35,317 bases of DNA. Source: Candidatus Sumerlaeota bacterium. GTDB lineage: Bacteria; Bacillota; SLNR01. Within the stretch, counting starts at the first letter, position 1. Every line of letters begins with the position of its first letter. The notes below the pieces were generated by a model. It made no database searches, was not told the DNA's origin, and worked only from the letters and a program-made list of their open reading frames with translations. A program made the position numbers and the translations under genes. This document shows positions 788 to 34,326 of the stretch, piece after piece. The stretch spans positions 1 through 35,317 of the forward strand of contig SLNR01000005.1 of the NCBI GenBank assembly GCA_007132905.1, given 5' to 3'.

Positions 788-2371
788 ATGGATGAACAGG
801 AGAAAGAAGCCATTGATATCGGTAAGAAGATTGACTTGGACGAAATAGCTAGGTTTTACCACAAGAGGATGAATCCAGAAAATCGAAATATACTTAAGCA
901 AAGAGGGATCAACGATGCTTCCATCGACAAGTTTTTGCTAGGTTACGATGATGGTACTCGTATCGGTTTTAGTAGTTCGGATATGAGTAAATTAGGTGAT
1001 TTTTTCAAGGACCGGTTCATATTTCCGATCATGAACGAAGAGGGCGAAGTGGTAAATATGGTGGGTCGCTCAAAAATGAATGTCCAACCGCTGTATAAAG
1101 ACCTCCCCTCCCAATATGTAAAAGACCCGGATATTTTATTTAACGAGGCTGTAATCAAAGAGAGCGACACGGTTTTTTTATGTGAAGGAATCATTGATGC
1201 TATATCGTTGATCCAGGCAAATTTTCCGGCTGTTGCTATATTAGGAGTCAATAGTTTTAAAGCTGAATGGTCCGAAAAATTTAAGGATAAACATCTGTTT
1301 CTTTGTTTTGACAATGATGAAATTGGCAGAATGGGCAAAGAGGCTATCGCCCGACAGATCAGTGACAGTGCGGAAGAAGTGTATTTTATCAATCTGCCTG
1401 AGGGCATCAAAGATATCAATGAGTATTTTGTCAAAGTAAAAGATGCGGCTAAAAGCTTTGTGATGTTGGTGCAACAGGCAGCACAAAGCGGTAAATTCAG
1501 GCAGTTTCCGGCAGATACGCGCAATTTAAACACATTTCAACAAGAATATACCAGAAGAAACGAAGGCAAAATGGTAGGCATACCTACCGGGTTCAGCGAG
1601 TTGGACAAAATTCTTTTTGGTGGCTTCAGAGATGGTTTATACATTGTCACAGGAGAGCCGGGGGCGGGAAAAACCACTTATCTGCGCAATCTTGCCGACA
1701 GAATAGCAGGCAGAAGGATTCCTGTCATTATGGTGTCTATGGAAACATCTGCTTTTGAACTCTGGGCAAAAAGCATGGCACGCATTACGGATTCTAGTAT
1801 TGGGGATGTGTTATGCGGTCGCGTCGACCAAGGGATTATTGCAGAGGCAAATAAAGAATATGCTCCTATTGCTTCCCTGACGTGGACCGTGGAAGGAGTG
1901 GGACCGGTTCCGGTCACCGCCATTGATTCGTATGTTTATCAGACATTCAACGAACTTGGGACGGCTCCGGTTGTGATTGTGGACTATTTGCAGAGGATTC
2001 CGGTTGATATTCAGATTCAGGCTCCTTCACAAGAAGTTTTTGACAGTTATAATGCTTACTCGTTAAAAAAACTTTCCCAAAAGTATTCCTGTCCGGTGGT
2101 GGCGGCTTCGTCTATTGAAAAGCCTCCGACAGAAAAGCGAGATACCAATGAAAGGGTCACAGCGGTCCTTTACACTGCCGATGTTGTTATGAATTTGTCA
2201 GGGCGTGGAAGAGAAGGCGTCGAAACAGAAGAAGATCCCCAATCTGTAGTTCTTGAGATATTGAAAAACCGAAACGGAGTATTAGGCAAAATTCCTTTAG
2301 AGTTTCACAAAAGCAGAAGCTATTTCTCTCCAATAGAAAAAGAAGAAGCCGGTGAAGGAGAATCAAAATGA
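788..2371 (+). CDS. Toprim-domain primase fused to DnaB/Twinkle-like helicase, lacking the DnaG zinc-binding domain
   Basis: DnaG-like core (ILKQRGINDASIDKFLLGY), Toprim motifs (FLCEGIIDAISL, FDNDEIGRMG), Walker A GEPGAGKTTYL, Walker B-like VVIVDYLQ; no Cys/His zinc ribbon at the N-terminus. Confidence 0.85.
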   Translation: MDEQEKEAIDIGKKIDLDEIARFYHKRMNPENRNILKQRGINDASIDKFLLGYDDGTRIGFSSSDMSKLGDFFKDRFIFPIMNEEGEVVNMVGRSKMNVQPLYKDLPSQYVKDPDILFNEAVIKESDTVFLCEGIIDAISLIQANFPAVAILGVNSFKAEWSEKFKDKHLFLCFDNDEIGRMGKEAIARQISDSAEEVYFINLPEGIKDINEYFVKVKDAAKSFVMLVQQAAQSGKFRQFPADTRNLNTFQQEYTRRNEGKMVGIPTGFSELDKILFGGFRDGLYIVTGEPGAGKTTYLRNLADRIAGRRIPVIMVSMETSAFELWAKSMARITDSSIGDVLCGRVDQGIIAEANKEYAPIASLTWTVEGVGPVPVTAIDSYVYQTFNELGTAPVVIVDYLQRIPVDIQIQAPSQEVFDSYNAYSLKKLSQKYSCPVVAASSIEKPPTEKRDTNERVTAVLYTADVVMNLSGRGREGVETEEDPQSVVLEILKNRNGVLGKIPLEFHKSRSYFSPIEKEEAGEGESK

Positions 2372-3589
2372 ATTTTTGGTTCCATTTATCTCTTTTGACA
2401 ACAAAAGCCGGGTAAATTTGGTGATTGTTTCTTCCCTCATGTGCCAGGGCAAAAGATCCGATTTCTTAAAAAGCCGTACGCCCTTACGTTCTTTTTTTAA
2501 TTCTTTAACCGGGGCAGAGGCCACCTTGTTTTTGAAATCATGGTAAGAATGAACTTGAAACCGCTCTATGTTTTGTCTTTCGGCGGTATGCTCAAGCAGG
2601 GCAAGAACAATATCCCGGTAGGAGGCTTTTTTGTCAAGTTTCAAGGCCTTGGCAATGTAAGGGATTAATTTTTCAAAGATGGATTTGCGGAAGGCATCTC
2701 CTGCGGGCAGTTTGAGTTTTTCTAAGAGAGGTGATATTTCCGTCTCATCGATACGGCAGATTTTCTGGAAATAATAATCTTCGCTTTCAACTTCGTCGAT
2801 GTAATACTTATTTCCTAAATAGTGATTGAAGGCCCGGAGTGTGTCATAAAAGCCAAGTTTGATGTTAGTTTTTGATCGGGCAGGAGAAAATTCGAGAATG
2901 GCTCCGAGGCTTTCTCTAGGCTGTATCAAAGTTATGTTGGCTTCTTTGTTTTTTACTTTTCTGCGAATGCCCATTCCTTTGATACTTATGGCGATGATAT
3001 CTTTATACCCTTTGTCAATGAGCATATTGATAGGGAGAAGGTCATAAAACCCTCCGTCGATAAAACGTTTTCCTTCGATTTCCTGGTCTTTGAAAAACGG
3101 CAGAGAGCTGCTGGCGATAATGTATTCAATCAGTTTATCCTTTGGGATATCTTCAATAAACATTTCCATCGGCGTCCGCTCTGTCAGCGAGACGGTGACT
3201 AAGCCGTAATCCTTTTTTGATTGGCGGATCTTTTTTTCGTCAATGTGTTTTTCTAACAGTTTTCTCATCGGAGTAATGTCGAGTCCTTTTTCCCGGACTG
3301 CATATTGCATATACCGAAAAAGACCGCTTAGATGGCCTGGCAATTTTTCGAGTTTTTTAATTCTGTCTTGCAGTGAATGGTCAATGTCAAAAAGCATTGA
3401 AGGAGCAATATCCGACCAAATTTCAATTGCTTCTTCCAAATCGTCTTGAATCATAAAGGCCCCATTGATAGCACCGACTGAAGTACCCGTGACACCACCG
3501 TAATCGATATTCAGTTCTTTTAGAGCCTTCCAAGCCCCGACTTGATAGGCTCCTTTGCCTCCTCCACCTTCTAAAGAAATGCCGTACAT
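2363..3589 (-). CDS. Patatin-like phospholipase family protein
   Basis: EGGGGKGAYQVGAWKAL oxyanion motif, GTSVGAING nucleophile elbow, DGGFYDLLP Asp motif. Confidence 0.9.
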   Translation of the reverse strand: MYGISLEGGGGKGAYQVGAWKALKELNIDYGGVTGTSVGAINGAFMIQDDLEEAIEIWSDIAPSMLFDIDHSLQDRIKKLEKLPGHLSGLFRYMQYAVREKGLDITPMRKLLEKHIDEKKIRQSKKDYGLVTVSLTERTPMEMFIEDIPKDKLIEYIIASSSLPFFKDQEIEGKRFIDGGFYDLLPINMLIDKGYKDIIAISIKGMGIRRKVKNKEANITLIQPRESLGAILEFSPARSKTNIKLGFYDTLRAFNHYLGNKYYIDEVESEDYYFQKICRIDETEISPLLEKLKLPAGDAFRKSIFEKLIPYIAKALKLDKKASYRDIVLALLEHTAERQNIERFQVHSYHDFKNKVASAPVKELKKERKGVRLFKKSDLLPWHMREETITKFTRLLLSKEINGTKNSF

Positions 3590-3706
3590 AAAAACACCCC
3601 ATAAGTGAGCCAGGATTTACTATCTATAGTGAGTGGTTCCCTAGAATTCAACTTTTCCCTGCATGTTTGTGCGATCAACATAGGCAAGAAAGGAGGACGA
3701 TCTTTT

Positions 3707-9224: not shown

Positions 9225-11177
9225 TTGTTTTTGAATAGAAGCATCCGTAATTTGATGTTTTATGCGCTGCTGTTTCTGATACCGATTATGATCAGCAGTT
9301 ATTTCCATGGGCAGCGGCCGGAAATTTTACAAATAAATTACTCTGAGTTCGTGAGCTATGTGGAAGAAGGAGAAATTGAAAGGGTGACCATTGTTGGCGG
9401 CGAGGCAGGAACTAGTACGGTCACCGGCACACTCCGAGATGAAAGAGAATTCGAGACGGTGGTCTTGACAGATCCGGATTTACTGCAAACATTAAGAGAC
9501 CAGAATATTACCGTTGCGGTTGAAGAACCGCCGGCGCCATCTATTTGGATTTCCATGTTGACAACAATACTCCCGATTTTATTGATAGTCGGTGTGCTGT
9601 TCTTTTTTATGCAGCAGCAACAGGGAGGCGGGAATAAGGTGATGCAATTTGGCAAAAGCAAGGCCAAACTGCACACTGAATATAAAAAGAAAGTGACTTT
9701 TGCCGATGTGGCTGGCGTAGAAGAAGCAAAGGAAGAAGTAAAAGAGATAGTGGATTTTTTAAAGACCCCCAAGAAATATGGTGAAATCGGAGCTTTGATT
9801 CCCAAAGGAGTGCTTCTCTTCGGAGCCCCGGGAACAGGGAAAACCCTACTGGGGAGGGCCATTGCCGGAGAAGCGGGTGTACCCTTTTATAGCATAAGCG
9901 GCTCGGATTTTGTAGAAATGTTCGTCGGTGTGGGCGCTTCAAGGGTAAGGGATCTTTTCGATCAAGCAAAGAAGAACTCTCCCTGCATTGTGTTTATCGA
10001 CGAGATTGATGCCGTCGGTCGGCAGCGAGGAGCCGGTTATGGTGGCGGTCACGATGAAAGAGAGCAAACTTTAAACCAGCTTCTTGTGGAAATGGACGGC
10101 TTTGGTATAAATGAAGGAATCATTGTGATGGCGGCAACAAACCGTCCCGATGTATTGGATCCGGCTTTACTGAGGCCGGGGCGGTTTGACAGGCAAATCG
10201 TCTTGGATCGACCGGATGTCAACGGCAGACATGATATATTAAAAGTACATATAAAAGACAAACCCGTGGAGGAAGACGTTGATTTAGAGGTCATCGCAAG
10301 GAGAACCCCCGGCTTTACCGGTGCGGATCTTGCCAATTTAATCAATGAAGGTGCGCTTTTATCTGCTCGTCTGAATAAAAAGCAAATTGGCATGGCCGAA
10401 CTTGAAGAGGCGGTCGACCGGGTAATGGCCGGTCCAGAGCGCAAGACCAGAGTCATAAGCGATAACGAAAAGAAGATTATTGCTTACCATGAAGCGGCGC
10501 ACGCTTTGGTGGCAAGAATGGTGGATAAGTCAGATCCTGTGCACAAAGTATCCATCATTCCCAGGGGATCTGCCTTAGGTTATGTTCTTCAGTTACCCAC
10601 AGAAGACCGCTATTTAGTCAGTAAAAGTGAACTGCTTGATAAAATTTCCGTTTTGCTTGCCGGACGTGCTTCCGAGCAGAAGTTTTTCAATGATGTAAGT
10701 ACGGGAGCTCAAAATGATTTAGAACAGGCAACAAAACTTGTCAGGCGAATGATTACCGAATATGGTATGAGTGACAAATTGGGTCCGGTTACTCTTGGAA
10801 ATAAGCAAGATCAAGTATTTCTCGGGCGAGATATCGGGAGAGAAAGAAATTACAGCGAAGATATTGCCTCTGCCATTGACACCGAGATGCGAGCAATCAT
10901 TGATCAATGCTATGAGCTTGCCCAATCAGTGATTGAAGAGAATGAAGATAAACTTCATAAGATCGTAGAAATGTTGCTAGATAAAGAAACAATTCAAGGG
11001 AAAGAGCTTGAAGATCTTTTGAATTCGGCTGACCACGAAGAAGATGAGGATATAGAGGCCTCTCATTCACATGGTGATCACACACAAGAAGCTTATGAGA
11101 AAGAAGAAATCGAGGAACCAGAAGAAGAAGAAAATGCAGAAGAAAAAAGGCAAAAGGATGATGAAGCTGGTGTATAG
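9225..11177 (+). CDS. ftsH: ATP-dependent zinc metalloprotease FtsH
   Basis: Two N-terminal TM segments, Walker [27 protein letters not shown] region [22 protein letters not shown], zinc motif YHEAAHALV (HEXXH). TTG start at 9225 or 9231. Confidence 0.96.
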
Positions 11178-11684: not shown

Positions 11685-12245
11685 ATGCCTGATGTAGAGA
11701 AAATTGAGGAAGCGGTCAGGATGATTTTAGAAGCAATCGGTGAAGATATTCACAGAGAAGGCCTAAGAGATACTCCTCAGCGTGTTGCCCGTTTTTATGC
11801 TGAGGCGTTTTCCGGGATGGGAAAAGACCCGCGAAAAGACCTAACATTGTTGTTTCAAGAAAAATATGATGAGATGATTTTGGTAAAAGATATTCCACTT
11901 TATTCTATGTGTGAGCACCATTTGCTTCCTTTTTTCGGGAAAGCGCATGTGGCTTATATCCCCAAAGACGGGAAAATTACGGGATTGAGTAAAGTCGCAA
12001 GGGTTGTGGAGACCGTGGCAAAAAGGCCTCAGGTTCAAGAACGTTTGACGAGCACTGTCGCAGACTTGTTAATGGAAAAGCTAAACCCCTATGGAGCGGC
12101 GGTAGTCGTGGAAGCAGAGCATATGTGCATGACCATGAGAGGAGTAAATAAACCGGGGTCGATGACAGTAACATCGGCTTTGAGAGGTTTATATCGTCAA
12201 GATGAAGCAGCCAGAGCCGAATTATTTTCATTAATCGGTAAATAG
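11685..12245 (+). CDS. folE: GTP cyclohydrolase I
   Basis: [46 protein letters not shown]. Confidence 0.95.
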
Positions 12246-12256
12246 GGGTGAATGGA

Positions 12257-13450
12257 ATGATAACCAATGCAAGGATTGTCCACTGCGACAGTTATGAAGA
12301 TGCTTATAAAGAGATAAAAAAAGTGGGTTCTTGTGAACACGGGGCAAAAGCTATGGCTGACAAGGCGGTTCATGTGCTGCTTCGCCTTGATATGGTTCCT
12401 ACTGTAGCGGCCAATATTATCAAACAAGAGATGCTTTCAAAAGGCGGCGAAGCTGCTGTGAGCAAAGGTACGGTGGATTTAGCGGATTCACATACTTCGA
12501 TCTTGTTAATGGGAACCATAAAACAGTACAAGCTCCTTACGGGTAAATTGAAGCTTCAGCAGTTTAAACTCCCGACCATCGCAAAAGAGATCGAGGAAAC
12601 TCTTGCTCAAAGAGAGAGAACATTGCCCGCTTTAAAGATGAATGATCAGGATTTTCACTGGGACAGACAAACATATATAATGGGAATACTAAATGTAACT
12701 CCTGATTCTTTTTCTGACGGCGGATTGTTTATCGACCCGGATAAAGCCATCATTCGGGCCAGGGAAATGGTCCATGACGGAGCCGATATCATTGATATCG
12801 GTGCAGAATCAAGTCGTCCCGGGCATAATAAGTTAAGTCTTCAGGAAGAAGAGAAGAGATTATTCCCTGCTTTAGAAAAAGTGCTGCAGGAAGTGAAAGT
12901 GCCCGTCTCGATAGATACTACCAAAGCATACATCGCGAAAAGGGCTCTAAAAATGGGTGCGTCTATGATCAATGATATCTCTTTTTTGAAAGACGATCCT
13001 GCCCTAATCCGGGCGGTAGCTCAAAAAAAGGCAGCTTTGGTTATTATGCATAATCGAGAAAAGGCAGAATATATTGATTTGATGGGAGAGATCATGGGGG
13101 ATATTAGAGACGGAATTGATAGAGCCCTTGATGCCGGAGTGAATAAAGATAAAATCATTGTGGATCCCGGCATTGGATTTGGCAAAACGGCTGTTCACAA
13201 CTTGATTGTTCTTCAGCATTTGAAAGAAATCAAATCTTTAGGTTTTCCTTTACTCGTGGGTCCTTCCAGAAAATCATTCATTGGGAAAACGCTGGATTTG
13301 CCTGTGCAAGAAAGGGTTGAAGGCACAGCAGCCGCAGTTTCCTTGAGTATTGCAGGAGGAGCTGATTTTGTCAGGGTGCATGATGTAAAAGCTATGCGTC
13401 GTGTGGCAGATATGAGTGATGCCATTGTTCGCCACCAGGAGGAACTGTAA
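12257..13450 (+). CDS. folP: Dihydropteroate synthase with about 130-aa N-terminal extension
   Basis: Catalytic domain IMGILNVTPDSFSDGG, DIIDIGAESSRPG, SIDTTKA, VDPGIGFGK, GPSRKSFIG; preceded by a non-DHPS N-terminal segment. Confidence 0.93.
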   Translation: MITNARIVHCDSYEDAYKEIKKVGSCEHGAKAMADKAVHVLLRLDMVPTVAANIIKQEMLSKGGEAAVSKGTVDLADSHTSILLMGTIKQYKLLTGKLKLQQFKLPTIAKEIEETLAQRERTLPALKMNDQDFHWDRQTYIMGILNVTPDSFSDGGLFIDPDKAIIRAREMVHDGADIIDIGAESSRPGHNKLSLQEEEKRLFPALEKVLQEVKVPVSIDTTKAYIAKRALKMGASMINDISFLKDDPALIRAVAQKKAALVIMHNREKAEYIDLMGEIMGDIRDGIDRALDAGVNKDKIIVDPGIGFGKTAVHNLIVLQHLKEIKSLGFPLLVGPSRKSFIGKTLDLPVQERVEGTAAAVSLSIAGGADFVRVHDVKAMRRVADMSDAIVRHQEEL

Positions 13451-13451
13451 T

Positions 13452-13823
13452 ATGAAGGATAAAATCAAGCTTCATAATATGGTGTTTTATGCTTTTCACG
13501 GCGTGTCCAGCGAGGAGAAATCGTCAGGGCAGCGCTTTATGGTGGACTTAGAAATGAGTTTGGATCTTCGCCAAGCAGGGATATCGGACAATCTTTCCAA
13601 AACAGTCCACTACGGGCATGTTTACAGAATGGTAAAAACCATTGTAGAGGACCAAAATTTTGATTTGATTGAAGCTTTGGCTGAGAAAATAGCAGACCGT
13701 GTGCTGAAAAGCTACGGTCTTGTTGAGACGGTCCTTGTATGCGTGAAAAAACCTCAAGTTCCGATTCAAGGGATGCTTGATTATGCCGCCGTTGAAATTG
13801 TGAGGAATCGAAGCGATGGATAA
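13452..13823 (+). CDS. folB: Dihydroneopterin aldolase
   Basis: DKIKLHNMVFYAFHGVSSEEKSSGQRFMVDLEM; VNYG-like VHYGHVY; VKKPQVPIQGMLDYAAVEI. Confidence 0.93.
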   Translation: MKDKIKLHNMVFYAFHGVSSEEKSSGQRFMVDLEMSLDLRQAGISDNLSKTVHYGHVYRMVKTIVEDQNFDLIEALAEKIADRVLKSYGLVETVLVCVKKPQVPIQGMLDYAAVEIVRNRSDG

Positions 13824-14322
13824 TGTCTATTTGGGGGTAGGAACGAACCAGGGAGATAGAGAAAAAAACTTGAAGACAGCACTGAGAATTTTACAAGAGG
13901 ACGACAATATTTATATCAGCAAGGTTTCTTCAGTATATGAGTCTGAGCCGGTTGGCTATGAAAAACAGCCGGATTTCCTGAATTGTGTGATTTGTGTTAG
14001 AACAGATTTGTCTCCTCAAAATGTACTTTTGAAAGCAAAAGAGGTAGAAAAAAGAATGGGCAGAGAAAAGAGTTTTCGATGGGGACCAAGAAAAATTGAT
14101 ATTGATATTCTACTGTATGGACAGGAATTAGTAGATAAGGAGGATCTGAAAATTCCCCATCCTGAGATGAAAAAGAGGGGCTTTGTTTTGATCCCGCTTC
14201 ATGAAATTGAGCCAAAACTTACCTTGCCGGGCGGAGAGAAAATTGAGGATTTGATGTGTAATTTGCCACCAAAACACGGAATTGCAAAGCGAAGCGACAT
14301 AATCTTGACAGTAGATGACTAA
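13816..14322 (+). CDS. folK: 2-amino-4-hydroxy-6-hydroxymethyldihydropteridine pyrophosphokinase
   Basis: LGVGTNQGDREKNLKTAL, RWGPRKIDIDILLYG, IPHPEMKKRGFVLIPLHEI. Confidence 0.94.
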   Translation: MDNVYLGVGTNQGDREKNLKTALRILQEDDNIYISKVSSVYESEPVGYEKQPDFLNCVICVRTDLSPQNVLLKAKEVEKRMGREKSFRWGPRKIDIDILLYGQELVDKEDLKIPHPEMKKRGFVLIPLHEIEPKLTLPGGEKIEDLMCNLPPKHGIAKRSDIILTVDD

Positions 14323-23120: not shown

Positions 23121-23978
23121 TTGGCATCTCTTAATGAAAAAGATTTGCGCAAAGAAATTGGCCGTTTTTTGTCAGACCGCGGGATTGATCTGTTCGGTTT
23201 TGCTCCAGTGTCAAGGTGGGAAAAATACGATGAGGTGCATCCGGATTTTCGCCCGCAAGAACTTTTTCCTACCAAGACGGTGATCGTGGCCGGCATGGGC
23301 ATGCCTCTTCCGATAGTGGAGACAACCCCCTCGGCGATTCATATGGAGCTTTACCGCACAGTAAATCGAGAGTTGGACAGCACCGGTTATTATCTTGCCC
23401 GGTTTCTAAATCAAAAAGGTATCCCTTCGATCTCCTTTCCCAGGGATGGATACGGAAGCATTCAAATCATCAAGGAAAAACCAGGGGCCGCTTTTGCCCA
23501 TGTAAATGCTGCCAAATATGCCGGACTGGGAACAATCGGAGTAAACAATGTACTGCTTACGCCCCAGTTTGGACCTAGGGTACGATGGGTGTCTGTTTTA
23601 ACTGAGATGGAATTTGAAGGAAGCCCCATGATCGAAAATGAATTGTGTATTCGCTGCCTTGCCTGTGCCCGCTGCTGCCCCGTAGATGCAATTATTCCTC
23701 GCGATGACCGTTTTAAACCGGACTTTAAGTCTCTTCCCTGTGCCAATAGAGCGGAAGAATTAACAAAAAGACGATGCTATCCCTGTGGAATATGCATCAA
23801 GGTTTGCCCGGTAGGGGAAGATAGAAAGCTCTTTGCCTCAGAGGAATCCATGTCTTTGTATTTGAATGAGCAAGGCGAAGGAAAAGATCCTTTGGATGTG
23901 AAACTATATAAAAGATGGAAGCATTTTCGTAAATGGGGAAGCTGGACAGAGGAGGAGATGAAAGATGGAAAAAAATGA
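23121..23978 (+). CDS. Epoxyqueuosine reductase-like (QueG family) 4Fe-4S protein
   Basis: AAKYAGLGTIGVNNVLLTPQFGPRVRWVSVLT and ferredoxin motifs CIRCLACARCCPVDAI / CYPCGICIKVCPVG. Confidence 0.82.
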   Translation: MASLNEKDLRKEIGRFLSDRGIDLFGFAPVSRWEKYDEVHPDFRPQELFPTKTVIVAGMGMPLPIVETTPSAIHMELYRTVNRELDSTGYYLARFLNQKGIPSISFPRDGYGSIQIIKEKPGAAFAHVNAAKYAGLGTIGVNNVLLTPQFGPRVRWVSVLTEMEFEGSPMIENELCIRCLACARCCPVDAIIPRDDRFKPDFKSLPCANRAEELTKRRCYPCGICIKVCPVGEDRKLFASEESMSLYLNEQGEGKDPLDVKLYKRWKHFRKWGSWTEEEMKDGKK

Positions 23979-24681
23979 AAAGCTGTTTAGCCACTTTAGA
24001 GAAGCAGCTTCGTCAGATCTTCAAAGGGATGATAAGATCCAAGAATGCAAAAACATTATGGAAGAACTACTAAAAAAGAGAGAGGTTCTCCATGACCTGT
24101 TGACTCAAAAAGCAACCCAAGAGGAGCCGGAGTCTTTTCTTCCGCCGGATATTAATGGTTTTAGCCTTTACAGGGACCCGGAAAAACAATTTTCCATGCA
24201 TCTTTTTATTTGGGCACCCTATGTGCCTTATCCTATCCATGATCATGGATCTTGGGGCGTGGTCGGGTGTTACCAAGGGAGAATTGAAGAAACGAAATGG
24301 TCATGGCAGGGAAAAATTGATGATAGGACAGTCGATTTAAAGCCATTAGAACCCCAGGTGCTTGAGCAAGGGGAAACAACCTATGTATATCCTCTTTCAG
24401 AAGGGCCCCACAGCATGCGGCCTTTGGATGAGAAGATGGCTATGAGCATCCACGTGTACGGGAAGCCTGAACGCAAGGGTATGCTCCGTTATTTTCACCG
24501 TTCATTTGATCGGACCGAAGGATACACTTTTCATTATGCTAAGCCCCTTTATGTTACCCGAAGACTTTTGGCTTTGGAAGCATTGTCAGAAGTGGATTCA
24601 TCTGCGGGCAAAGAAGTGAAGGAGCAAGTTTTGAAAACTTCTTCAAACAAAGTGCTGGTAAAAATGCTCGAAAGTTTTTAG
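23965..24681 (+). CDS. Cysteine dioxygenase type I-family thiol dioxygenase-like cupin
   Basis: PIHDHGSWGVVGCYQGRIEET (His-x-His), GPHSM third His, SIHVYG corresponding to the CDO Ser-His-Tyr triad. Confidence 0.82.
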   Translation: MEKNEKLFSHFREAASSDLQRDDKIQECKNIMEELLKKREVLHDLLTQKATQEEPESFLPPDINGFSLYRDPEKQFSMHLFIWAPYVPYPIHDHGSWGVVGCYQGRIEETKWSWQGKIDDRTVDLKPLEPQVLEQGETTYVYPLSEGPHSMRPLDEKMAMSIHVYGKPERKGMLRYFHRSFDRTEGYTFHYAKPLYVTRRLLALEALSEVDSSAGKEVKEQVLKTSSNKVLVKMLESF

Positions 24682-24731: not shown

Positions 24732-27602
24732 ATGCCAACACCGATCTATGATCCGTTGAAAGGGAAAATGCGTGTGTTCGGATTTGCTTCGGGGTCAGGA
24801 AATACTTTGTGGAAAGTGCTGGAGCTGCAAAAAGAATTAGAAAAGGGAATGGAAGGCTGTCCATTTGAAGTCGTCGGTGTTTTTTCGGACAACCCGGATT
24901 CAAAAGCAATCGAGACTGCAGAAAAATATGGATTTCCTCATGTAAGCTTAAATTTACGAAAATACCATAAAGAAAAGGACGCTCCATTAAAAGATAGAAA
25001 GGTAAGAGCTGAATTTGACTCTGAAGTATTGGAGCTTGTGAAATCTTTTAAACCGGATCTTATCCTTCTGGCAGGATATGTCTGGGCTACTACAGATGTG
25101 ATTGTGGATCGTTACCGGGTTATTAACATCCACCCTGCCGACCTTTCTGTGCAAAAGGAGGGGGAACGTCTTTATGCAGGGGCGCACGGGATTAGGGACG
25201 CACTAGATGCCGGAGAAGACTATCTGCATTCATCCTCCCACATAGCCACAAAGGAACTGGACGGAGGCCCTTTGCTGATGATTTCTCCGGGTGTTCCTGT
25301 AGACAGAGATCTTGATCTAAAAGGAAACGAAAGAGAACGCTACTATTTAAAACCCGTTAATAAACAATCAAGACAGTTAGCGGCGAGGACTGTTTGGGAG
25401 ATAGCTAGAGGAGCTTTTTCACAAGACAGTGAAGGGAAAGTTTACTATGAAGGAAACAAAGTGCCCAAGGGATTTTGTCTGCCCAGTTGGGATAAGTATA
25501 AGCCTCTTTATCAAAGACCAGTCGAGCCGTTGATTAAACCGAAGTCAGTTGCGGTGGTCGGTGCCTCAGCCAAAGGAGGGATTGGCCAGGCGATTATTCG
25601 AAACCTAAAAGACGGCGGATTTGAGGGAGGCATGTATGCGGTCAATCGAAAAGCAGAGGATGTGCTGGGGGTTTCGGGCTATGCCTCTATCCTTGATATT
25701 CCGGAAGATATTGATATGGCTGTGTTGGCAATTCCTTCATCTTCTGTTGTTGAAATCGCCCAAGAATGCGGCAAAAAGCAAACCAAGGTGGTAGTCTGTA
25801 TTTCGGCGGGATTTAAGGAAACAGGAGAAGAAGGGAAAGAACAAGAGAAAAAACTTTTGGACACTGTTCATTATTATAATATGAGACTTATAGGGCCAAA
25901 CTGCATGGGGATTGCCAATACAGATCGAGCTGTATCATTAAATGCCAATATACTTCAATCGGCTCCGCCAAAAGGCAACATAGGTTTTATCACTCAAAGC
26001 GGAGCATTAGGGGCTGCCATGGTTGATTTTGCAGAAGAACTTGGACTTGGATTTTCCATAATTGCCTCTCTTGGAAACCAGGCAGATTTAAATTGTAATG
26101 ACCTGTTAATGCTTATGGAAGAGGATGTTCAAACAGAAGTCGTATTGCTTTATATGGAATCGATTCCGGAGCCGGGAAGATTCAAAAAGTGGGTGAAGCG
26201 GTTAGCAAAGAGAAAACCGGTGATTATGATCAAAGCCGGACGAACAGAAGCCGGAGCTTTGGCAGCCAGTTCCCATACAGGCAGTCTTGCGGGCAAAGAC
26301 CAAGTAGTGGCTGCTTTGCTTAAGCAAAGCGGCGCTGTCCGCGTAAGATCTTTATCTGAAGCTTTTGCTGCCGCCTCGGCATTGGCAAAGATGCCCAAAG
26401 TGAAAGGTAAAAAAGTAGGTGTCATCACTAATGCGGGAGGACCGGGTATTTTGGTTTCTGATGCTCTCCATGACAATGGGTTTGAGCTGCCTTTGCTTGC
26501 AAAACAAGCCCAGGAGAAGCTAGCTGAAAAGCTGCTTCCGGAAGCTGCTGTGAGGAATCCGATCGACTTAGTGGCACCGGCTCCTCCGAAACACTATGCA
26601 CAAGCTGTCAAAGTGATGATGAAAGAAGGGGACTATGATGCGCTTTTGATTGTATGTGTTCCACCCGCCACGATTGATACAGGCGAAGTAGCAAGAACAG
26701 TAGTAGGGGAATTACAAGAAACAGACATGCCGGTTCTAACTTGTTTCTTTGGCCCCAATCTAGGTGCAGCGGGAAGAGAAGTGATGCTGAAAGCCGGGAT
26801 TCCAACCTTCTCGTATCCTGAAGAGTTGGCGAATATTCTTTGCATTATGAGAGAAGCTTCTTTCTCAGCAAAGAGTGCGACAAGAGAAATATCAAGCAAA
26901 CAAAAACCTGAAGAGCTTCCTCCACATCTTAAAGAGAGAATAATCCAAAGCCCGCCGGGGAAATATCTGCCTTCACCGTTGTGCAGAGAGATTCTTCAAG
27001 CCTATGGTTTTAACATGGTACAAAGCTATGAGGTGGCGAGTGCAAAACAGATTCAAACCAACGAATTTCCGGTGGTGGCTAAAATTCATCATCCTGAGCT
27101 TATCCACAAAACCGATGAAGGTGGTTTGGTGATGAATTTACAGGATGAGAGAGAGTTAGAAGAGGCCGTGGATTATTTATTGAGGAGGTTTCCCGGGGCA
27201 AAAGGAGTGGAGATTCAAAGGCAAATTCCTCCGGGGAAAGAAGTGATCTTAGGGGCTGTCAAAGACTCGTTGAATGGGCATGGTGTAATGGTTGGTATAG
27301 GAGGAACACAGGTTGAGCTGTATAAAGATATTGCTTTTGGACATGCGCCTTTGCATAAACAAGAGGCTGAAGAGATCATAAGGAGTTTAAAGGGGTATCC
27401 ACTTTTGAGCGGATACCGAGGTCAAGCAGGTGTGAATGTTGGATTGCTGTCAGATCTAATGGTTCGGTTAAGTTGGCTTTTAATGGAAGTTCCGCAAATA
27501 GCCGAAATGGATTTGAACCCATTGATTTATGATGCAAAACAAGATGATTTTGTGATAGTTGATTACCGTATACGTCTAGCAGGTTCAGAAGACGTTTTTT
27601 GA
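24732..27602 (+). CDS. PurN-like formyltransferase domain fused to NDP-forming acyl-CoA synthetase (alpha + beta/ATP-grasp)
   Basis: N-terminus: GFASGSGNTLWKVL, VGVFSDNPDSKAIETAEKYGFPH, DLILLAGYVW...YRVINIHPADL, KELDGGPLL. C-terminus: CoA-binding SVAVVGASAKGGIGQAIIRNL, IGPNCMGIAN, GNIGFITQSGALG, SSHTGSLAGKDQ, ATP-grasp IHHPELIHKTDEGGLVMNL. Confidence 0.88.
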   Translation: MPTPIYDPLKGKMRVFGFASGSGNTLWKVLELQKELEKGMEGCPFEVVGVFSDNPDSKAIETAEKYGFPHVSLNLRKYHKEKDAPLKDRKVRAEFDSEVLELVKSFKPDLILLAGYVWATTDVIVDRYRVINIHPADLSVQKEGERLYAGAHGIRDALDAGEDYLHSSSHIATKELDGGPLLMISPGVPVDRDLDLKGNERERYYLKPVNKQSRQLAARTVWEIARGAFSQDSEGKVYYEGNKVPKGFCLPSWDKYKPLYQRPVEPLIKPKSVAVVGASAKGGIGQAIIRNLKDGGFEGGMYAVNRKAEDVLGVSGYASILDIPEDIDMAVLAIPSSSVVEIAQECGKKQTKVVVCISAGFKETGEEGKEQEKKLLDTVHYYNMRLIGPNCMGIANTDRAVSLNANILQSAPPKGNIGFITQSGALGAAMVDFAEELGLGFSIIASLGNQADLNCNDLLMLMEEDVQTEVVLLYMESIPEPGRFKKWVKRLAKRKPVIMIKAGRTEAGALAASSHTGSLAGKDQVVAALLKQSGAVRVRSLSEAFAAASALAKMPKVKGKKVGVITNAGGPGILVSDALHDNGFELPLLAKQAQEKLAEKLLPEAAVRNPIDLVAPAPPKHYAQAVKVMMKEGDYDALLIVCVPPATIDTGEVARTVVGELQETDMPVLTCFFGPNLGAAGREVMLKAGIPTFSYPEELANILCIMREASFSAKSATREISSKQKPEELPPHLKERIIQSPPGKYLPSPLCREILQAYGFNMVQSYEVASAKQIQTNEFPVVAKIHHPELIHKTDEGGLVMNLQDERELEEAVDYLLRRFPGAKGVEIQRQIPPGKEVILGAVKDSLNGHGVMVGIGGTQVELYKDIAFGHAPLHKQEAEEIIRSLKGYPLLSGYRGQAGVNVGLLSDLMVRLSWLLMEVPQIAEMDLNPLIYDAKQDDFVIVDYRIRLAGSEDVF

Positions 27603-32272: not shown

Positions 32273-32317
32273 TTTTCTGCGATTGCTGGGTGTAATCCGA
32301 ATGAAGGAGGGGTGAGG

Positions 32318-33223
32318 TTGAAAAAAGTTGTCAGTGTCAGCCTAGGATCATCAAAAAGAAACAGCTCGGCTGAGATCGAAATTCTGAATCAAAAAATTCA
32401 CATTGAAAGAATAGGAACTGATGGCGATATTAAAAAGGCGATAGAGTTAATTAAAAAAATGGATGGAGAAGTAGACGCTTTTGGCATGGGAGGGATCGAT
32501 TTATATGTTTGGGCAGGAAAGCGACGTTATATTCTCAAAGACGCCGTTCCTATAGCTAAAGCCGCCGTAAAAACCCCCATCGTAGACGGAAGCGGATTAA
32601 AAAACACCCTTGAAAGAAGAGTCATAAGATACCTTCAAGATAGTTCAAAGATGGATTTGAAAGGAAAAAGAGTTCTGATGGTTTGCGGCGTGGATCGTTT
32701 CGGCATGGCCGAAGCATTAAACGAAGCAGGGTGTCATCTTGTTTTTGGGGACCTTATCTTTGTCATAGGACTTCCGGTTTTGCTTAGGTCTTTGAGATCT
32801 CTTCACATGGTGGCTTCGATTCTAGGCCCTATGTTAAGCAGACTGCCCTTTCATATGCTCTACCCTACCGGAAAAAAGCAAGAAGATGTTCATCCTAAAT
32901 ATGAAAAATACTATCAAAATGCAGAAATTATTGCGGGAGATTTCCATTTTATCAGGCGGTATATGCCAAAGAATCTTGAAGGGAAAACGATTATCACCAA
33001 TACGGTAACCAAAGAAGATGCCGCTGAATTAAAGCAGAGGGGAATAGTGAGGTTAATTACAACAACACCGGAAATAGACGGAAGGTCTTTTGGGACAAAT
33101 GTCATGGAAGGAGTGTTGGTCGCTTTAGCAGAAAAACCAGACCATGATTTGAGCGCAGAGGATTATGATCGTCTTTTAGATAAGATTGAGTTTGTTCCTA
33201 GAATCACAGAAATGGCAGATTAA
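32318..33223 (+). CDS. Conserved protein of unknown function (members are sometimes labelled quinate 5-dehydrogenase)
   Basis: Long ORF with good RBS (GGAGGGGTGAGG); motifs DAFGMGGIDLYVWAGKRRYILKDA, VLMVCGVDRFGMAEAL, GDLIFVIGLPVLLRSL. Start TTG 32318 or GTG 32312. Confidence 0.6.
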   Translation: MKKVVSVSLGSSKRNSSAEIEILNQKIHIERIGTDGDIKKAIELIKKMDGEVDAFGMGGIDLYVWAGKRRYILKDAVPIAKAAVKTPIVDGSGLKNTLERRVIRYLQDSSKMDLKGKRVLMVCGVDRFGMAEALNEAGCHLVFGDLIFVIGLPVLLRSLRSLHMVASILGPMLSRLPFHMLYPTGKKQEDVHPKYEKYYQNAEIIAGDFHFIRRYMPKNLEGKTIITNTVTKEDAAELKQRGIVRLITTTPEIDGRSFGTNVMEGVLVALAEKPDHDLSAEDYDRLLDKIEFVPRITEMAD

Positions 33224-33246: not shown

Positions 33247-34326
33247 ATGGAAAAGTTTGCGTTTGTACTTCATCCGATTAGTGTTCGAGATATCGCCAGG
33301 AAATTTGGATTTGCAAAATATTTGCCCGACGGTGTTTTGGAAAGCATGTTTAAGATGGTTCCCCCTTTAAAAGTTTCTCATATTACGGGAGTTGAATCTC
33401 CTCACAGTCAAGCAGAAGGATGGTTTGTTGCTGTTCCTCTTACCCCGAAACAGATGACGAACCTGCCCCTGGATTTTGTGCTGGATAGAATCATAAAGGC
33501 AGGAAAAATTGCCGAGCAACAAGGAGCCAAAATACTGGGACTAGGCGCTTTTACTTCTGTTGTTGGAGATGCGGGAATTACAGTCGCAAAAAATTTAGAC
33601 ATTCCCGTGACAACCGGCAACAGTTATACCGTAGCAACAGCGCTTCAAGGCACGGAAAAAGCAGCTGAGCTGATGGATATTGATTTAAGAGAGGCAGAGG
33701 TGGTCGTACTTGGAGCGACAGGGTCTATTGGAAGTGTTTGTTCGGAAATATTGGCCCGCGATAAGAGAAAACTGACTTTGGTTGCAAGAGACAGAACAAA
33801 ACTCGATAACTTGTTGCATAAACTAAGTAATGAATACGACTCAAGGGCGAGCGCTTCAACAGATGTAAAAGAAGCAGTCCAGAATGCAGATGTAATCATT
33901 GCCGTCAGCAGTGCCGTAGAGGCCCTCATCGATGCCGAAGATCTAAAACCCGGTGCCATTGTTTGCGATGTAGCAAGGCCGAGAAGTGTATCAAAAGCGG
34001 TGGCTGAAGCCCGCGACGACGTTTTGGTGATTGAAGGGGGAGTGGTAGAACCGCCCGGAGATGTTGAGTTTAATTTTAATTTTGGATTTCCTCCAAAAAA
34101 CGCATACGCCTGTATGTCTGAGACGATGATTTTAGCTTTAGAGAAAAAATACGAAAGCTTTACTTTGGGAAGAGAACTTTCTTTGGAGAAAGTCGAAGAG
34201 ATTTCGGTTCTTGCTGAAAAGCATGGGTTTAAGCTGGCTGGATTTAGGAGCTTTGAAAGAGCTTTGATGCCTGAGCATATTGAGGCAATAAGAAAGAATG
34301 CTCAAGGGAAGAAACAAACAGGATAA
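33247..34326 (+). CDS. Acyl-ACP reductase (AAR)/shikimate-dehydrogenase-like NAD(P)-binding protein
   Basis: GAKILGLGAFTSVVGDAG, TTGNSYTVATAL, VVVLGATGSIGSVCSEIL (Rossmann), LTLVARDRTKL, VIEGGVVEPPGDVEFNFNFG, AYACMSETMILALE; closely resembles the cyanobacterial acyl-ACP reductase pattern. Confidence 0.75.
   Translation: MEKFAFVLHPISVRDIARKFGFAKYLPDGVLESMFKMVPPLKVSHITGVESPHSQAEGWFVAVPLTPKQMTNLPLDFVLDRIIKAGKIAEQQGAKILGLGAFTSVVGDAGITVAKNLDIPVTTGNSYTVATALQGTEKAAELMDIDLREAEVVVLGATGSIGSVCSEILARDKRKLTLVARDRTKLDNLLHKLSNEYDSRASASTDVKEAVQNADVIIAVSSAVEALIDAEDLKPGAIVCDVARPRSVSKAVAEARDDVLVIEGGVVEPPGDVEFNFNFGFPPKNAYACMSETMILALEKKYESFTLGRELSLEKVEEISVLAEKHGFKLAGFRSFERALMPEHIEAIRKNAQGKKQTG

Follow-up and report, generated by a model that had tools for sequence, protein, structure and literature searches.

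The window analysed here, a 35,317-nucleotide stretch of contig SLNR01000005.1 from Candidatus Sumerlaeota bacterium, carries a gene that joins a formyltransferase domain with the PurN fold to a complete NDP-forming acyl-CoA synthetase (residues 263-949) within one open reading frame (Table 1). The frame begins at an ATG, has no internal stop, and encodes five domains that all exceed the curated Pfam cut-offs. The N-terminal domain matches the Formyl_trans_N superfamily in both profile and fold (residues 13-184, E 5e-15; PF00551 score 56 bits against a cut-off of 26) and, when modelled alone with AlphaFold2 (pTM 0.90), has E. coli GAR transformylase (1cde) as its top PDB structure in a Foldseek search. 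Matches to the PurN model TIGR00639 (E 6e-23; 81.3 versus 150.1 bits) and to the ADP-forming ligase models TIGR02717 and NF045493 (E ~1e-144) in NCBIfam fall under the equivalog cut-offs. A model of the entire fusion, with 23 homologues as input, reached a pLDDT of 85, and its synthetase part matched 8wzu (TM 0.83; 30% identity in the structural alignment). The closest PDB sequence neighbours are PurN for the first part and 4-hydroxybutyrate-CoA ligase for the second. An earlier note on this DNA had read the locus from its letters as one 956-residue frame with a PurN/Fmt-like start followed by a full acyl-CoA synthetase; this layout is confirmed, and the domain search and AlphaFold model that it had proposed place the N-terminal part in the formyltransferase fold.

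Table 1. The fusion gene, its domains and its conserved motifs, in window positions
Feature	Position	Strand	Basis
Fusion gene, 956 aa	24732..27602	+	Single ORF; same layout in 24 other genomes, 23 of these aligned
Formyltransferase (PurN-fold) domain, residues 1-262	24732..25517	+	PF00551, TIGR00639, AlphaFold2 of the domain alone (pLDDT 92), Foldseek 1cde (TM 0.88 by target)
CoA_binding_2, residues 271-396	25542..25919	+	Pfam, E 1e-21
Succ_CoA_lig, residues 414-551	25971..26384	+	Pfam, E 2e-48
Ligase_CoA_2, residues 563-699	26418..26828	+	Pfam, E 4e-10
ATP-grasp_5, residues 745-949	26964..27578	+	Pfam, E 4e-51
Glycine-rich loop SGSGxTLW, residues 20-27, invariant	24789..24812	+	Homologue alignment; PurN phosphate-loop counterpart by PurN alignment
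NIHPADL, residues 132-138	25125..25145	+	N132 variable; H134 and D137 invariant; Ala136 replaces Ser of HPSLLP
D177, invariant, counterpart of catalytic Asp (E. coli PurN D144)	25260..25262	+	Homologue and PurN alignments
H515 of SSHTGS, swinging-loop phosphohistidine, invariant (H256 in Nmar_0206)	26274..26276	+	Alignment; mechanism PMC11494057
H792 of HKTDEGG, ATP-grasp histidine, invariant	27105..27107	+	Alignment; counterpart of Nmar_0206 H535 by motif, PMC11494057

When 84,980 species genomes were scanned with the N-terminal domain, 27 further loci emerged, of which 24 hold the complete fusion (942-951 aa); of the remainder, L043 and L047 are cut by contig ends and L046 is a natural split described below. 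The 23 full-length fusions that were aligned end to end share 47-52% identity with the window protein. Records bearing the fusion belong to the Oscillospiraceae and other Clostridia, Treponema, Spirochaetaceae, Synergistaceae, Ca. Adiutrix, Soehngenia and Cuneatibacter, and one of the 24 genomes is not labelled as a MAG. Among 399 genomes drawn from the phylum of the window genome, the domain occurs in the window genome only, and the distribution of the fusion is therefore patchy. Three loci from the same phylum (L003, L005 and L006) carry, by eye, an acyl-CoA synthetase with a GNAT-like region joined to its N-terminus, a Pat-type arrangement. A frameshift or assembly error, which the earlier note had kept in view as an origin of the fusion, is excluded by the 24 other full-length copies. 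The earlier note had also allowed for homologues with a defined reaction; none was found in the PDB, NCBIfam or the open-access literature, where nothing on point was located for a PurN-like or formyl-THF/acyl-CoA synthetase fusion or for a formyl-CoA synthetase. A search of plasmids with the N-terminal domain found distant formyltransferases only, all below 60% identity and at ~25-33% among the matches listed.

The N-terminal domain shares with PurN (GAR transformylase, TIGR00639/PF00551) its fold, the active-site His and Asp and the glycine-rich loop, while several other PurN features are replaced. Across the alignment of 24 full-length sequences H134 and D177 never vary, whereas N132, the counterpart of a catalytic PurN residue, is Gly in several Synergistaceae, such that only two members of the catalytic trio read from the single sequence are retained throughout. 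The HPSLLP motif of PurN reads HPADL in the fusion, and the QEH motif, which in PurN serves GAR binding, reads NxQxR. The pterin-loop region is likewise rewritten (LAGYVWATTD in the fusion versus LAGFMRILS in PurN, with loss of RILS), so folate binding by the domain is not assured. The window genome encodes separate PurN-like, Fmt-like and Fhs proteins, and this, together with the loss of GAR-binding features, argues against the fusion being an enzyme of purine synthesis or of tRNA; a housekeeping PurN or Fmt identity was accordingly dropped. A plain replacement of Fhs is also unlikely, as 23 of 27 genomes, the window genome among them, have an Fhs match. The PurN fold and the partly conserved phosphate loop would suit a domain that adds formyl to, or removes it from, a small molecule with an amine, in the manner of PurN, ArnA and the sugar N-formyltransferases, with the synthetase taking the acid portion of that compound, but the neighbouring genes point to no amine-bearing substrate and the GAR features (QEH) are lost, which makes this a distinctly unlikely role.

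The synthetase part has the make-up of an NDP-forming acyl-CoA synthetase (ACD): a single chain carries the CoA-binding, ligase and ATP-grasp domains together with both histidines, H515 and H792, which are unchanged in the 24 aligned full-length sequences. Two such histidines carry phosphate in NDP-forming acyl-CoA synthetases (PMC11494057). The domain order and both catalytic histidines are those of ACDs such as Nmar_0206, the 4-hydroxybutyrate-CoA ligase of 8wzu, while the fusion differs in its additional N-terminal formyltransferase domain and in scoring under the equivalog cut-offs. The Pat-type acetyltransferases (PatZ, GNAT plus ACD) also join an ACD-type synthetase to a transferase domain, though theirs is a GNAT domain where the fusion has a PurN fold. 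Pfam found no match to a GNAT domain in the fusion, both ACD histidines are retained and a role as a protein acetylase is not indicated.

Within the window, the fusion is flanked by CDO-like and TRZ/ATZ-type genes and belongs to a row, with hydantoinase, M20, racemase and amidohydrolase genes among its members, that keeps to one strand and has mostly short intergenic gaps. From this setting the earlier note had tied the fusion to a hydantoin-degrading island, with carbamoyl or formyl transfer linked to ATP synthesis. The survey of hydantoinase co-occurrence that it suggested tells against that tie, as BLAST found no homologue of the hydantoinase, M20, racemase, CDO-like or TRZ genes near the fusion in the 27 other loci (flanks up to 10 kb), and a place in hydantoin or carbamoyl metabolism is highly improbable. 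Two genes upstream of the fusion in the window, one for a QueG/reductive-dehalogenase-like 4Fe-4S protein (23121-23978) and the other, directly adjacent, for a weakly cysteine-dioxygenase-like cupin (23965-24681), are not found near it elsewhere. The same window holds a folate synthesis row (folE, folP, folB-like and folK; 11685-14322) and, towards its end, a 303-aa ORF with no Pfam or NCBIfam match (32312-33223) followed by a 359-aa ORF (33247-34326).

What recurs around the fusion in its relatives is a different set of genes. One set of loci has an NSS-type Na+ symporter and a 2-aminoadipate-type aminotransferase, another has TRAP transporter genes and a D-2-hydroxyacid dehydrogenase, and regulator genes recur as well. 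In two Synergistaceae (L042 and L048, ~2277-3600) a kynureninase-like gene lies, by eye, several kb upstream of the fusion. The most constant neighbour is a ~405-aa HMGL-like protein of the DRE-TIM type, divergent and isopropylmalate-synthase-like, which is encoded within 4.5 kb of the fusion in 24 of the 27 loci (two of the three exceptions sit on ~3 kb contigs). A whole-genome search recovered this partner from 25 of 26 fusion genomes and, in addition, from the window genome, where it is on another contig (C95) and adjoins a MerR/cupin regulator of the type seen at other loci. As with the fusion, an orthologue-level partner was found among the 399 genomes of the phylum in the window genome only (2.6e-215; next 6e-151). 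Partner distances co-vary with fusion distances (r = 0.77, with none of 2000 permutations as high), a correlation to which shared host ancestry contributes. In three relatives (L023, L024 and L026) Fhs lies downstream and shares the strand of the partner, and the presence of Fhs in the gene group of the fusion fits a folate C1 step.

The partner resembles the isopropylmalate/homocitrate synthase family in its metal site, retaining the RDGEQ and HxHxD motifs, and departs from it elsewhere. The aligned synthases have both the SxED Glu and the HxxGxH motif, whereas in all 16 partner orthologues checked the Glu is Ala or Ser and HxxGxH is WxTGxP. If these residues are needed for Claisen condensation in the family, the partner falls outside the ordinary isopropylmalate and homocitrate synthases. 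Its distant paralogues apparently form a wider, uncharacterised family, with varied neighbourhoods that indicate no one substrate; at loci L109-L128 they often adjoin a 2-hydroxyacid dehydrogenase, and some have SucCD-like, fumarase-like, creatininase-like or M24-like neighbours (both by eye). A route through malyl-CoA could be drawn from these genes, in which the partner would join a 2-oxo acid such as glyoxylate to acetyl-CoA, the synthetase would take ATP from the malyl-CoA-like product and the formyl domain would handle the C1 units of glycine. A glyoxylate-reductase-like dehydrogenase, alanine-glyoxylate-type aminotransferase relatives, the SucCD-like and fumarase-like genes beside the more distant paralogues, and the precedent of the pattern proposed for Syntrophobotulus glycolicus (PMC8092247) favour such a route, but it asks for a condensation from a partner that lacks the Glu and HxxGxH of the aligned synthases, and we consider it improbable.

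One locus separates the two halves of the fusion. In L046 (Ruminococcaceae MAG RUG14376) the N-terminal domain is a 258-aa ORF (10001-10777) whose stop codon falls at the domain boundary. Between this stop and the regulator gene downstream there is no synthetase ORF, and a search of the genome at E 1e-20 found no synthetase either. The symporter, partner, aminotransferase and regulator are all still present. The two activities thus look separable and, provided that this one MAG is correct, the formyltransferase acts alongside the partner with no need of the synthetase. The split weighs against the conversion of formyl-CoA to formate and ATP as the sole role of the fusion. It also bears on the possibility that the N-terminal domain serves to sense folate or to regulate and that the synthetase alone is catalytic, for which the variable N132 and the existence of ACD proteins joined to another transferase domain (Pat-type) could be cited; H134 and D177 are invariant in records from several phyla and L046 retains the domain though the synthetase is gone, and a purely regulatory domain is very unlikely.

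A two-domain protein with a comparable plan is HypX, in which a formyl-THF hydrolase-like domain precedes an enoyl-CoA hydratase-like domain and for which formyl-CoA synthesis from formyl-THF and CoA has been proposed (PMC6802093). Both proteins have an N-terminal formyltransferase followed by a CoA-using domain and both lack the Ser of the His/Ser/Asp triad, HypX using an Asp instead (PMC6802093) and the fusion having an Asp nearby (D137). By this analogy HypX would seem a closer precedent for the fusion than FdrA, although the C-terminal part is a crotonase in HypX and an ADP-forming synthetase in the fusion, and the partner gene differs. Were CoA the substrate shared by the two halves, this would account for their fusion, in keeping with the Pfam assignment of CoA binding to the domain that follows the formyltransferase. 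Yet the net reaction would be that of Fhs, for which 23 of these 27 genomes already have a match, the partner would be left unexplained and L046 has the N-terminal domain with no synthetase found. A HypX-like role is therefore unlikely, if less so than the other alternatives.

The reading that we tentatively favour, with a little less than even confidence, is that the fusion is a catabolic enzyme with two functions in an anaerobic pathway yet to be characterised, coupling folate C1 transfer to ATP formation from an acyl-CoA and acting with the partner. Both domains, their invariant catalytic residues, the near-universal partner and the placement of Fhs in the gene group of three relatives support a bifunctional enzyme. 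Against it count the Gly at N132 in several Synergistaceae, the rewritten pterin loop, a partner without the typical condensing residues and the single MAG behind the stand-alone N-terminal domain. Entry into the pathway would be from an amino acid via the aminotransferase, or from a D-2-hydroxy acid via the 2-hydroxyacid dehydrogenase, and since some loci have the one enzyme and some the other, a 2-oxo acid is the probable common intermediate. The DRE-TIM partner and the fusion would then process the 2-oxo acid. The N-terminal domain, through H134 and D177, may transfer formyl to or from tetrahydrofolate, with a thiol of the pathway, CoA or a metabolite at the other end of the exchange, while the C-terminal part, presumably running in the direction acyl-CoA + ADP + Pi -> acid + CoA + ATP, would act via its two phospho-histidines. 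The general idea of the earlier note, C1 transfer linked to acyl-CoA/ATP chemistry, thus stands on the profile, structure, conservation and Fhs evidence, while its hydantoin setting does not hold across the 27 loci. A more specific version, to which we attach less confidence, is possible, namely a dedicated anaerobic fermentation pathway spread over several phyla of anaerobes, those of the gut included, in which the partner is a DRE-TIM lyase that, with the fusion, splits the 2-oxo acid, passes the C1 unit to or from folate and leaves an acyl-CoA for ATP formation.

Each part of the fusion comes from a known family, and the joined architecture with its partner has no characterised example in the PDB or the open-access sources searched. 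The fusion unites two well-known enzyme families with a near-obligate partner and a short list of candidate substrates, making a specific gap in the metabolism of gut and rumen anaerobes testable. If the proposed role is true, the enzyme would connect folate one-carbon units with substrate-level ATP formation in a new way.
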